From a virus: DNA of 45,680 nucleotides. The position numbers and the translations under genes are program-made. The stretch lies in the IMG/VR virus record IMGVR_UViG_3300034947_000011, positions 1 to 45,680 of that record, one strand, 5' to 3'. The first letter of the stretch is position 1. Every line of letters starts with the position of its first letter. Below the pieces are notes generated by a model. It had not been told where the DNA came from, did no database searches, and saw only the letters and a list, made by a program, of their open reading frames with translations. Below, piece by piece: positions 2,166 through 11,983 of this stretch.

Positions 2166-2441
2166 TCAGACCACCTTTACATTTATAGTGCAACCCTGAT
2201 TCGACCAAATGAACGCGCCAACATCGTCAACATCGTTTATCAATTCTTCTCTAGGATAAAATGGCCTAAAACCAGTCGTATTATCAGGTTCACCTGCAAG
2301 AGCCGCCCCTGAATACAACTTACCTTGCCCATTCCCAATCATCTTTACGCTAATCTGTATCCCAGGAGTTATCCCTGTTTCGCTGTAAATATCTACAACT
2401 GTTTTAGCCGGTACAACAATATTTGGTATTGTATTTGCCAT
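2166..2441 (-). CDS. Short virion protein, paralogue of the N-terminal domain of the 2910-4292 product
   Basis: The 91-aa product begins MANTIPNIVVPAKTVVDIYS and matches most of residues 1-87 of the upstream fibre gene product (shared IPAKTVVD, MIGNG, KLYSG, GEPDN, GAFIWSNQGCTI). The ribosome site AGAGG precedes the ATG. Because the same domain is elsewhere fused to a C-terminal fibre domain, it is probably an attachment or decoration domain that anchors to the virion. The exact role is unknown. Confidence 0.65.
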   Translation of the reverse strand: MANTIPNIVVPAKTVVDIYSETGITPGIQISVKMIGNGQGKLYSGAALAGEPDNTTGFRPFYPREELINDVDDVGAFIWSNQGCTINVKVV

Positions 2442-2463
2442 TTATACAACCTCTTTTAGCATG

Positions 2464-2907
2464 TTAACTCGCAATTATACCGTGTAATAACGGTTGTGTT
2501 ACGGTTATTATATCACAATTTTCATCTTGATAACTAACAGCAGAGCGATTATAGGCAGCGTAATATCTCTGCTCACCGTTTATAATCCACTCAATATCAT
2601 CGAATGATTTAATGAATTTACCTTCTGCCACTTGCTCAACACCATCCTCATCAGTGTAAACAGTGTCTTTAGCTTTACCAATCACCGCTGTCATCGGCAG
2701 ACTTAGAAACCAATCAACCTGCTCTTGGTTCAATCGGCTTAGCGCAACAGACTTAACACCAGTCGCTTTAATCGGATTCTTATCGGCAATCAGTTTTGCC
2801 TCACCATTATCATCAACGTAACAATGTTTACTTCCAGCTTCAGCTTCTGCTAATAGTGCTGTACGAAATACAGGTGTATCAATTACTTCTGTTATATAAT
2901 CTCTCAT
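2464..2907 (-). CDS. Hypothetical protein of the fibre operon (147 aa)
   Basis: It starts three bases after the upstream fibre gene stop, so it is translated in the same operon. The protein is acidic and soluble, with no membrane segment or signal peptide. Its place between two fibre genes suggests a fibre-assembly chaperone or minor structural protein, but I recognise no family motif. Confidence 0.6.
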   Translation of the reverse strand: MRDYITEVIDTPVFRTALLAEAEAGSKHCYVDDNGEAKLIADKNPIKATGVKSVALSRLNQEQVDWFLSLPMTAVIGKAKDTVYTDEDGVEQVAEGKFIKSFDDIEWIINGEQRYYAAYNRSAVSYQDENCDIITVTQPLLHGIIAS

Positions 2908-2909
2908 AA

Positions 2910-4292
2910 TTAAGCTCCTGCCAGTACGTCATAATCGTTAGCTTTGAGTGACTTCATGTGTCCGAACATGTGCGTTACACCTTCCGAAAATGCGCCAACA
3001 CGAATCAGGGCAGGCGATGTTATAGGTGATGCAGTAGCAACAACGGAATCTTCTATAACCTCATTCACTGACAATTTAAAGTTTGTGCCGTCAAATATAA
3101 CAAGCACGTTGTCCAGTGTGTTTGGCGTAATGGTCGATGTTGATGTTAACGTATCAGTTAAGCCGCTAATCAACTTGGCAACGTAATTACCTGAACTGTT
3201 AATACTCAATGATACATATTCAGTTAATCCAGCATTGCCTAATATAAATACCGTTTGATCAACAGAGTTAATTCCTAGCACATCAAAAACAGTGTTTATT
3301 GTAAATAGTGCCGGGTCAAACCCTGCTGGTACTGGATAGGTTAGGTTTGTTGCTGCTTGTGTTGTATTGAGTCCATATATAGGGTTTACATGGAATGGTA
3401 GACCAGTGTCGTTAGGTGCCCACACAATACACTCTGTCAGAGTGGCACCTATTGATCTGAAATCTGCCGCATAGAAAGAACTACCACCTATCTCAGTGGT
3501 GTCTACTGTTAGGTTAAATCTTTTCCACTGCTCGGTTAATTCAACCAAAGATTCAGACACAGAGTTATGTGATAGCAATCCAACATATCCTGTGCCAGAT
3601 ACAGTTCTTGCCCATATGTATTTGCTTTCACCATTTATAATCCCAATAGCGTTTCCTGACGCATAGTAATCGCCATTTCCTGTTATAAGATATGCGTCTG
3701 TAGTGCCGTTTGGTGATATTACCGATGATGGTGATACAGTTGCTAGTCCATTTATCCAAAAGCTTGCGTCTGTCAAGTCTGTTTCTATTTTATTAGTCAC
3801 CGCACCACCAAGCAACACGCCATCCTTCTCAATACGTGGATGGTCAATTGCTGCTGTTTTTATTGTGCCTACTGGGTCTCCGCCTAAATCAGTAGGGCAC
3901 GCAGCACTATACTGCGCAGTTGATGCGCATGTGTATGTTGCAGGTCCAGTGCCTAGTCTTGGCTCGATTCCCCACGTGCAATCGTACTGAGTGTAAAATA
4001 AAACTCTTGGATCTGTTTCGATTAGTGACGGCGCAATTGTACAACCTTGATTTGACCAAATAAAAGCGCCAGAGTCTCCTGTGTCGTTTAACGCCTTCTC
4101 TTTCTCATAGATCGGATAAAACCCAGTTGCATTATCTGGCTCGCCATCTAAAGACGGACCTGAGTAAAGCTTGGCTTCACCATTTCCTATCATTTCAATT
4201 ACGATTTTAGATCCTGTTATGATATCTGTTTGCGCATATAGATCGACAACAGTTTTCGCTGGAATAATCACATTAGGCAGAGTATCAGACAT
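2910..4292 (-). CDS. Putative tail/head fibre with C-terminal lectin-like domain (460 aa)
   Basis: Residues 1-90 form a domain duplicated in the short gene at 2166-2441. A linker then leads to a beta-rich region (~160-300), and the C-terminal part (ending DNVLVIFDGTNFKLSVNEVIEDSVVA...) resembles a laminin-G/concanavalin-like jelly roll of the type used for sugar binding. It is the first gene after the capsid terminator. I infer a receptor-binding or decorating fibre. The N-terminal domain would be the virion anchor and the C-terminal part the ligand-binding end. Confidence 0.6.
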   Translation of the reverse strand: MSDTLPNVIIPAKTVVDLYAQTDIITGSKIVIEMIGNGEAKLYSGPSLDGEPDNATGFYPIYEKEKALNDTGDSGAFIWSNQGCTIAPSLIETDPRVLFYTQYDCTWGIEPRLGTGPATYTCASTAQYSAACPTDLGGDPVGTIKTAAIDHPRIEKDGVLLGGAVTNKIETDLTDASFWINGLATVSPSSVISPNGTTDAYLITGNGDYYASGNAIGIINGESKYIWARTVSGTGYVGLLSHNSVSESLVELTEQWKRFNLTVDTTEIGGSSFYAADFRSIGATLTECIVWAPNDTGLPFHVNPIYGLNTTQAATNLTYPVPAGFDPALFTINTVFDVLGINSVDQTVFILGNAGLTEYVSLSINSSGNYVAKLISGLTDTLTSTSTITPNTLDNVLVIFDGTNFKLSVNEVIEDSVVATASPITSPALIRVGAFSEGVTHMFGHMKSLKANDYDVLAGA

Positions 4293-9644: not shown

Positions 9645-9690
9645 GAAAAATATCCTATTAAATTGATTAACAGTCATTTTATAGCAGGCG

Positions 9691-9728
9691 AAAAAAAACA
9701 GCAAAAGCCGTTAAGCTAGTGCTGTTTT
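9691..9728 (-). terminator. Rho-independent terminator of the structured RNA
   Basis: On the minus strand AAAACAGC (9728-9721) pairs with GCTGTTTT (9702-9695), with a small inner AGC/GCT stem in the loop, and eight consecutive T follow GCTG. It lies just upstream of the tailspike start and closes the RNA unit that starts near 10411. Confidence 0.85.
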
Positions 9729-10081
9729 AAATCATGTCTTTTTGCCGGTGGCGACATTACCAACCATGAGAGTATCCCGATCGACATGACCACAGAGATC
9801 GGACTCTGGCACTTTGCATACGAAAACAGCAAGAGCGTTGATGAATCAACATAGCCGCAAGGAGTGCCTATCTGTCTCGGCGTGGCATTTCTGCCCGGCG
9901 TCTTCTATCTGTAATCGCTTGACTCACGTGGAGGAAGTGAGCTGCGTGGTTAATATTTATTAAATGCACTTGAACGTGACAACCAATGGATCTAACCAAA
10001 GCTGAAATAGCTACAAATGCACTTAATAAATACCGCGTGTGCGGTCACTTGTCATATTTCCTCAAAACTGAAAGCCCACAG

Positions 10082-10252
10082 TTATCGGCTAACATTACAC
10101 AATCGCTCTGTTTTATATAGTTGAAGCAGGAAAACTATGCCGCTTATACCTGCCAGCTTGCGGCTCTCTATGCATCGCTGAGGCGCGATTATTTCAACTA
10201 ATACAAACAAAACAAAAATGATAGAAGATAAAGCTTTAACGGCTAAAATCAT
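10082..10252 (-). CDS. Doubtful 56-aa hydrophobic ORF inside the structured RNA
   Basis: ATG at 10252 follows GAGGTGA with good spacing, and the product (MILAVKALSSIIFVLFVLVE...) has one clear membrane-like segment. However, the frame runs through the 8-bp stem and pseudoknot at 10118-10200, and the hydrophobic run comes from a U-rich stretch of the RNA. It could be a small lysis-related membrane peptide beside the holin, but an accidental frame is more likely. Confidence 0.22.
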   Translation of the reverse strand: MILAVKALSSIIFVLFVLVEIIAPQRCIESRKLAGISGIVFLLQLYKTERLCNVSR

Positions 10253-10416
10253 TATCACCTCTTTTGCAGGATTAAAATGCGTGTGATTACTTACGGTAAT
10301 CAATCTGGTTCATATTTATTCTCGCCTTACCTAGCAGCGAGCGTTCTTGGTAACTTTTACATCCGTTGACTACCCAAGCTGTGGATGTTGTCGGGTAAGC
10401 GTTGCCTACAAATCGA

Positions 10417-10445
10417 ATACTATACACGCAGGCCTAATGTGTCAA
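10417..10445 (-). promoter_or_regulatory. Sigma-70 promoter of the structured RNA
   Basis: A perfect -35 TTGACA (10445-10440), a 17-base spacer and TAGTAT (10422-10417) lie in the gap just after the holin stop; TATAGT two bases upstream is an alternative -10. The predicted start is near 10411, immediately before the first pseudoknot. The gene-sized RNA therefore has a dedicated strong promoter inside the late region. Confidence 0.8.
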
Positions 10446-10928: not shown

Positions 10929-11282
10929 TTATTTAAAACCATTGTATTCAAAACTAAAGTGGTTTGCATCACCATCTTCAAACTGGCCTCCCCACCTGGC
11001 TAGCTTATGCATTCTAACCCATGCAAGGCCAAGTAATTGATATTCTTCACAACCGCCATCTGTTATATACTTGTCGTCAACAAATAAGTTTAAATCAACA
11101 GCTAATCGCATCTTATGCACACTGTTTGCTGCGCTGTAGCTTCGCTTAACGCCAAACTTTCCATGCACGCGCTTATCACGATATGCGTCGCCGAATGTTA
11201 ACCCCCATCCTTGTGCAGTTGCAAAGTTGATTAGTTCAGATACGCATCGCGTAAATTCTTGTTGTGTTTTTGATAGGCTCAT
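10929..11282 (-). CDS. Endolysin, M15-family L-Ala-D-Glu-type peptidase (117 aa)
   Basis: Zinc-site residues of the VanY/M15 fold are visible: H56 and D63 in SVHKMRLAVDLNLF, and H108 in DGDANHFSFEYNG, with the WGGQFEDGD motif between. The length of 117 aa is normal for single-domain phage M15 endolysins. It would cleave peptidoglycan stem peptides after holin release. The ATG overlaps the HNH stop (ATGA), so it is translationally coupled to it. No signal peptide is present, so holin-dependent export is expected. Confidence 0.85.
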   Translation of the reverse strand: MSLSKTQQEFTRCVSELINFATAQGWGLTFGDAYRDKRVHGKFGVKRSYSAANSVHKMRLAVDLNLFVDDKYITDGGCEEYQLLGLAWVRMHKLARWGGQFEDGDANHFSFEYNGFK

Positions 11283-11983
11283 AATAAACCATCTTCTTTT
11301 AATTTATTCAAATTGTGAGTTACTTTATATTTTCCAAACTCACCGTGCAATTTTAATGCAGCATCATTATAAGCTAGTACGGCTTCTTTTTTATTTTGGT
11401 AATAGCCAAGATGTATGCTTTTGCTATTTACGGTAATATTAACAATCCAACAGGGTGGCATTCTTGAGCTGTCATAGTCATACCATCTTACGCCAAAATA
11501 ACCGCTTGAATTATTGCACGGAATAAGTTGGTGCTGAGCGTTATTATTTTTTGTTACTTCACGCAAGTTCTCGATTCTGTTGTTTGTCCTGTCATTGTCA
11601 ATATGATCTAAAAACTTAGGCTCAGTTCCATTGTGCCACATCCAAATTAATCGATGGGTAAGATATAGATTATGTGAAATGGTTGTTCTTCTGTATCCGT
11701 TACTTTCCAATTTTCCTTTATGTATATCACCAATTTTCTGCGTCCCTCTTGCTACTTTTCGTACAAAATAGCCATCTACATGGTAGTCGAACAAATGCTT
11801 CAACTCTTCTTGTGCTGGTAATGACAAATTCTTTTGATTATAACCAACGCTTTGAGCTGATTTTAACCTTCTTATCTTCGCCATTTCAGAGGCGCACCGC
11901 TTGCAGGTTCCGCGGTACCCTCCTTTACATTTATAAAAACTATCTAATGACTTTTCTTGCCCGCATCGTATACATTTTTTCAT
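11279..11983 (-). CDS. Free-standing HNH homing endonuclease with zinc ribbon and AP2 domain (234 aa)
   Basis: Domains in order: a Cys4 zinc ribbon (C4, C7, C27, C30); an HNH nuclease core (H110 in LTHRLIW, D127-H128 in LDHIDNDRTNN, N139 in IENLREVT); and an AP2 DNA-binding domain at ~158-220 (SSGYFGVRWYDY ... AVLAYNDAALKLHG). These are the parts of phage-borne selfish HNH genes. It has its own promoter and sits between the head gene and endolysin, with stop/start overlap to the latter. It probably entered by homing. All expected catalytic residues are present. Confidence 0.88.
   Translation of the reverse strand: MKKCIRCGQEKSLDSFYKCKGGYRGTCKRCASEMAKIRRLKSAQSVGYNQKNLSLPAQEELKHLFDYHVDGYFVRKVARGTQKIGDIHKGKLESNGYRRTTISHNLYLTHRLIWMWHNGTEPKFLDHIDNDRTNNRIENLREVTKNNNAQHQLIPCNNSSGYFGVRWYDYDSSRMPPCWIVNITVNSKSIHLGYYQNKKEAVLAYNDAALKLHGEFGKYKVTHNLNKLKEDGLL

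Follow-up and report, generated by a model that had tools for sequence, protein, structure and literature searches.

A candidate family of large structured noncoding RNAs encoded immediately upstream of the tailspike gene in a group of phages

What is encoded in the 804 nt that lie between the holin gene (10919-10449) and the tailspike gene (start codon 9644) of a virus record in which both genes are on the minus strand? The window, that is, the whole stretch of DNA that was analyzed, is a record of 45,680 bases whose portal protein was nearest to those of the Vibrio phages pYD21-A and LP.1 (61-63%), and the source is a marine phage, probably with Vibrio bacteria as host. The holin was identified by a match to PHROG 3427 (E 8e-33) and the tailspike by an N-terminus in common with the pYD21-A tail spike, which upholds the placement of an RNA unit between these two genes in the original prediction. 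The unit is carried on the minus strand, which the prediction had left unstated. From 5' to 3', it consists of the promoter that had been claimed (10445-10417; -35 at 10445-10440, a spacer of 17, and -10 at 10422-10417), a unit of ~720 nt, and the equally claimed hairpin and eight T (9726-9691). The features at its borders are as follows.

10417-10445, minus strand: sigma70-type promoter TTGACA-17-TAGTAT, from the sequence
9691-9726, minus strand: intrinsic terminator AACAGCA...TGCTGTT plus eight T, from the sequence and comparison
9678-9686, minus strand: extended -10-like TGCTATAAA, consensus match only

Elsewhere on the minus strand of the window (11279-11983), a 234-aa ORF, judged by eye to be apparently an HNH-type endonuclease, was located between the head morphogenesis and endolysin genes; pYD21-A has an annotated endonuclease at the matching position.

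The metagenomic search for homologues that the prediction had proposed was carried out by portal, tailspike, and DNA-pattern scans of IMG/VR. Homologous units were found in eight other phages, namely six IMG/VR contigs (L029, L031, L032, L034, L037, and L043), pYD21-A, and LP.1. All nine phages have the unit immediately before the tailspike gene and in the orientation of that gene, and each unit is bordered by a promoter-like site and an intrinsic terminator. The motif TTGAC(A/G/C)-16/17-TAtnTT was present at the corresponding position in most of the nine units, the weakest promoter-like site being that of pYD21-A (TTGACA-18-TAGTCT), and a hairpin with a T-run was located 3' of the core in every unit, its stem sequences differing from phage to phage. 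In pYD21-A, the unit corresponds to an 877-nt intergenic region that contains a tRNA-Gly and directly precedes the tail spike gene. The final ~290 nt of this region matched the 3' half of the window's unit (64%, E 1e-14), in direct pairwise comparison only; blastn with the window 3' half alone returned no phage record. A short version, about 250 nt, was present in LP.1 at the corresponding place. Relatives of the holin were also investigated (48 phage records, eight regions inspected), and no comparable unit was seen behind the holin in those annotated; the RNA therefore tracks the tailspike junction and not the holin. Looser core patterns gave, beyond the known units, coding or chance matches only, and one contig scan gave two chance matches. 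The loci of the Vibrio phages 1.210.O and 1.076.O were considered as family members and rejected because the core was absent. These are intergenic regions of 750-930 nt near the tailspike gene (L020 14221-15150 and L028 6019-6766), which embed tRNA-Pro and tRNA-Trp, respectively, and are about 80-90% alike; they may possibly be a further RNA class.

A 3' core of ~220 nt was common to all nine units. Its consensus fold was obtained with MAFFT and RNAalifold from eight members and comprised two domains.

9724-9945, minus strand: conserved 3' core, 222 nt, supported by a held-out covariance model and two-sided changes
9816-9945, minus strand: core domain 1, with P1 (GCA/TGC), hairpin Pa, segmented helix P2, and Pb and Pc in the P2 loop, from RNAalifold
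9770-9811, minus strand: Pd (GAGT-CCGAT/ATCGG-ACTC) beside the 5' arm of P3, with two-sided changes
9792-9875, minus strand: pseudoknot PK2, ACAGA (9875-9871) with TCTGT (9796-9792) in the Pd loop, from covariation
9734-9763, minus strand: pseudoknot PK3, Pf (TTGG/CCAC) interlocked with Pe (ATGTC/GACAT), from covariation

In domain 1, P2 is a long segmented helix (GCGA/TCGT, ANAG/CTNT, and AGAN/NTCT), and two-sided changes were found in Pa, P2, and Pc. The GAAA-tetraloop hairpin of the original prediction is present at 9895-9884 as GGCA(GAAA)TGCC. Domain 2 comprises P3 (GCC/GGC) around Pd, followed by PK3 just before the terminator. In P3, TGCC (9811-9808) pairs with GGCA (9746-9743); the helix is GCC/GGC in most units and GGC/GCC in L031. 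Seven pairs of Pd showed two-sided changes. The two domains contain the arms of PK2, which links the strand that separates Pb from Pc to the loop of Pd and whose arms read TCTGC/GCAGA in L029, CCTGA/TCAGG in pYD21-A, and GGTAT/ATACC in LP.1; 44/45 pairs form. In PK3, all five Pe pairs showed two-sided changes, and in an arm-swap test with hand-chosen arms the own arms paired in 45/45 (Pe) and 32/36 (Pf) cases. The prediction had counted four pseudoknots; comparison supported three (10388-10346, 9763-9734, and 9875-9871/9796-9792), a count of supported pseudoknots rather than a one-by-one check, the arms of the four having been left unlisted.

Compensatory changes were then counted over the whole core. 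Two-sided changes were found in 23 of 44 pairs, and across all 44, a pair is formed in 92% of cells. The number of two-sided cells was 53, in comparison with 18.8 after shuffling (0/500), and the covariation score was 0.410, in comparison with 0.162 after shuffling (0/500) and at most 0.105 when the structure was slid; covariation in the core was thus far above both kinds of control, in an alignment of only eight rows in which L034 and L037 are close to each other and PK2 and the register of Pe were set after inspection. Because these rows are few, these two settings were post hoc, and the arms were hand-chosen, the cleanest test is a covariance model trained on the six IMG/VR members, without the window, pYD21-A, and LP.1. 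This model matched the window (3.6e-36), pYD21-A (4.1e-29), and LP.1 (2.1e-11), the E-values being rough because of a short calibration, and it was held out for sequences and not for the choice of helices, since the window and pYD21-A were part of the alignment from which its structure was taken. No other source was matched in 409 kb, and nothing significant was found in 80 kb and 100 kb more (~0.59 Mb). Folding energy in comparison with shuffled sequences was not diagnostic (core, z = +0.17; whole unit, z = -2.1 with 20 shuffles). On this comparison of sequences, the core is a predicted fold with two pseudoknots that is conserved by paired mutations.

Such a core might act by itself or on the genes that follow it. 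The explanation that we favor, at a probability of roughly 0.55, is that the product of the locus is a large noncoding RNA of an uncatalogued family, which stands alone, acts in trans, and perhaps self-assembles. The fixed place of the unit directly upstream of the tailspike gene and its shared strand, both expected of a leader, were counted against a stand-alone RNA, and the main rival, which we regard as unlikely, is that the unit is a structured leader of the virion operon, with the core acting in cis on RNA polymerase or ribosomes so that transcription passes the terminator into the tailspike and head genes. HK022 put RNAs and lambda late-gene antitermination act in cis on transcription, and the HK022 put RNA and the lambda late leader resemble the present unit as structured RNAs that precede phage genes and are flanked by a promoter and a terminator; however, the unit here is far larger, with a complex pseudoknotted fold, tRNA cargo, and no conserved anti-terminator pairing. 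A leader role would agree with the terminator at the end of a unit that is always immediately upstream of the tailspike, and with the reduction of the LP.1 unit to promoter, core, and terminator. In the window, the 5' arm of the terminator could also form 7 bp with a segment of the core (8/500 shuffles), but this pairing was absent from the other eight units, and attenuation through an alternative terminator pairing was rejected because the pairing occurs in the window only. Moreover, the length of the 5' part, which reaches 1.2 kb, and the complete tRNA in it would be unusual for an attenuator or a put site. The sequence TGnnATAaA was found directly after the terminator in five phages (the window, L029, L031, L032, and L043). 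This -10-like site, which speaks against the leader reading, suggests that the tailspike is transcribed separately, and it is possibly a separate, perhaps late, promoter of the tailspike operon. The original prediction had the RNA expressed with the lysis genes; the unit has a promoter-like site of its own and adjoins the lysis genes, yet all nine phages also have it immediately before the tailspike.

In comparison with the core, the 5' part varied from 44 to 1,232 nt in length and was a mosaic of modules shared pairwise among the units. The LP.1 unit was almost the core alone, with its promoter 44 nt before the core. The features of this region in the window are as follows.

9954-10032, minus strand: long-range stem P_long, formed by 10032-10014 and 9972-9954 around a variable domain, from comparison
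10033-10044, minus strand: hairpin CCGC(ACAC)GCGG after AAGTGA, in 7/9 units, with CCCT/AGGG in L029 (two-sided)
10346-10388, minus strand: 5' pseudoknot PK1, ACATCC/GGATGT interlocked with CTTGGGTA/TACCAAG, in a module shared with schitoviruses
10321-10341, minus strand: hairpin CTCGC...GCGAG, with CATGT...ACATG in L002/L003, three two-sided changes
10082-10252, minus strand: ORF of 56 codons with ribosome site GAGGTGATA, with similar ORFs in L037 and L043

The 10-bp long-range stem that had been claimed (9954-9963/10023-10032) was exact, and it extends to 18-19 bp with G-U pairs. Seven members have AAGTGACC, the CCGC/GCGG hairpin, and P_long in common; in these units 12-13 of 13 inspected P_long pairs were kept, with exchanges of C-G for T-A, T-A for A-T, and G-T for G-C, around a loop of 39-128 nt. 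The claimed 10-base direct repeat, AAATGCACTT, is also present and lies within P_long; it arises because the inner part of this stem holds the self-complementary TGCA, which makes the two arms read alike.

Between P_long and the core, a tRNA was found in L029 (Met), L032 (Leu), and L034 (Trp), and the tRNA-Gly of pYD21-A likewise precedes the core. The locus could therefore be viewed as a phage tRNA transcript, in which the structured RNA would process, protect, or deliver the embedded tRNA, or would be a retained precursor. The tRNAs before the core in these four units are in line with such a role, as are T-arm-like remnants in L031, L034, and pYD21-A. However, the units of the window, L031, L037, L043, and LP.1 keep the core without a recognizable tRNA, so conservation of the core does not depend on the tRNA, and we consider this explanation very unlikely.

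PK1 and the hairpin at 10321-10341 form a module of ~80 nt after the leader, and a version of this module, 78-85% alike, was found in noncoding regions of schitoviruses of Vibrio breoganii (Mukerjeevirus and Pariacacavirus; L001-L003). There, the CTtGGGTA/TACCaAG of PK1 is changed to CTaGGGTA/TACCtAG. A pattern derived from the 5' module retrieved known schitoviruses only from IMG/VR. The schitovirus loci resemble the present unit in this 5' module and, in the case of L003, in a region of ~1 kb with a tRNA-like T arm, but they are without the 3' core and have another genomic neighborhood. To judge from these matches, the 5' module has moved between unrelated phage RNAs. The L003 region of Pariacacavirus 1.238.A (2346-3332; MG592603.1 57926-58912) is ~1 kb of noncoding DNA with several hairpins and a tRNA-like acceptor/T arm, and two parts of it occur in swapped order around a wHTH gene in the Mukerjeevirus (L002); it looks like another uncatalogued ornate RNA.

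The coding potential of the unit was also analyzed. The original prediction of no convincing gene mostly holds; the exception is the single 56-codon ORF with a good ribosome site (10252-10082). Comparison with L037 and L043, three short sequences in all, gave a pN/pS of about 0.8-1.1, with no sign of purifying selection, and no third-position excess. The blocks of the ORF that are best conserved coincide with two stem arms (10193-10201/10118-10125), the conserved sequence extends beyond the stop codon, and no Pfam or PHROG match was found for this ORF. It is probably not a gene, judging by these patterns. A cargo peptide is possible because the 5' regions of other units hold unrelated small ORFs. 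These are small, mostly basic, and mutually unlike (L029 12727-12930, L031 13833-14054, and the 5' region of pYD21-A), and that of L029 has a weak match to PHROG 4425 (E 0.002). It could be argued from the window ORF, its likeness in L037/L043, and the unrelated ORFs of L029, L031, and pYD21-A that the locus amounts to small genes and a terminator with incidental structure. However, no reading frame was shared in the core, and the 23 covarying pairs, the ORF pN/pS of about 1, and the conservation beyond its stop codon all run counter to this, so that the small-gene reading is largely refuted for the core and is, for the locus, extremely improbable.

The unit was then compared with known RNAs. 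No family of Rfam reached its gathering cut-off in cmscan anywhere in the window, the GOLLD, ROOL, and OLE models included, and no credible weaker match was seen in the unit; there, cmscan likewise gave no match above cut-off to OLE, HEARO, group I/II introns, or any other family, and in the relatives only the tRNA family matched. Twelve records, the window among them, were searched with the GOLLD model (RF02032), and none had a match at E <= 10; cmscan gave no GOLLD match either. With the ROOL model (RF03087), neither the window nor its relatives reached E <= 10; no control genome matched this model either, so it is the cmscan result that carries weight. The original prediction had offered a member of such a class or a new one, and the unmatched Rfam models speak against membership in GOLLD, ROOL, or OLE, while covariation and the held-out model speak for a new class. 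Among the papers searched, none was found that describes the RNA unit. By these comparisons, the unit is supported as a previously uncatalogued RNA family of a known kind, the large phage ornate RNAs.

In architecture, the nearest known system is GOLLD, in which a conserved 3' region is combined with a variable 5' region, tRNAs sometimes in the linker, pseudoknots, and a 14-mer cage (PMC12286853). The present family is likewise a large phage-borne RNA with a constant 3' part, a poorly conserved 5' part, pseudoknots, and tRNAs in some members: the core is in 9/9 units with a mosaic 5' part, and a tRNA precedes it in 4/9 (none in the window). In contrast, its core is ~220 nt, in comparison with 416 positions in the GOLLD model, which did not match. 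ROOL, which occurs in phages and prophages and is frequently close to tRNAs (PMC12286853), is likewise large and pseudoknotted but has no sequence or model similarity to the present unit. In phage biology, the nearest analog is the lncRNA of ICP1, an orf-less RNA of ~800 nt between gp139 and gp140, by the lysis genes, which is the most abundant transcript of that phage (PMC7567579, PMC9040626). Both are in Vibrio phages, in an orf-less space (~1 kb in ICP1) beside lysis genes on the same strand; however, the ICP1 locus has no sequence similarity to the unit and no match to the core model, is not beside a tailspike gene, and has no tRNA. The ICP1 region itself (L017 10098-11108; NC_015157 80097-81107) gave no Rfam match over the cut-off and was unmatched by the GOLLD and ROOL models.

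During infection, the stand-alone RNA that we favor would start at its own promoter and end at the terminator. The folded RNA would accumulate, with the core as the functional scaffold and the 5' region as an exchangeable slot for tRNAs, other structured modules, and perhaps peptides. By analogy with GOLLD and ROOL, it might assemble with itself or with a host factor and present or protect the contents of the variable region; self-assembly is the weakest step of this explanation. Counted in favor were the nine syntenic bordered units, the held-out matches, the covariation in comparison with controls, the constant core, the tRNAs before it, the -10-like site behind the terminator in five phages, and the ICP1 RNA and GOLLD as precedents. 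Counted against it were the 56-codon ORF, for which a coding role is improbable but conceivable, and the finding of the core in one phage group only, with no independent phage lineage; counted against the GOLLD/ROOL-like part was that there is no sequence or model similarity to either. The RNA could instead be a decoy or inhibitor that titrates a host factor (an RNase, the ribosome, RNA polymerase, or a defense protein), with the pseudoknots as binding sites. Phage RNAs of this kind are known, and compact invariant patches beside the covarying helices (AGATAGA, CTCCT, ATGCAAA, and GGCGAAAGA) resemble recognition sites; however, no specific target or matching motif was found, and we hold this role to be highly unlikely for the unit.

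To our knowledge, few classes of large ornate RNA have been described, and for none of them has a function been established. The present family is compact (~250 nt in LP.1), is present in two isolated phages (pYD21-A and LP.1), and has a fold supported by covariation, so that the role of phage ornate RNAs becomes testable on a small RNA. The constant core with swappable 5' modules, one of which is shared with unrelated schitoviruses, suggests that these RNAs are modular platforms. It is rather unlikely, though conceivable by analogy, that the family adds a third class of phage RNA particles that self-assemble, one with no sequence relationship to the cage-forming GOLLD and ROOL, in which the core drives homo-oligomerization and the 5' part is exchangeable cargo. 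If so, unrelated phages would have converged on RNA cages made of a constant scaffold and a cargo slot, and the 5' cargo would comprise tRNAs, modules traded with schitoviruses, and peptides.
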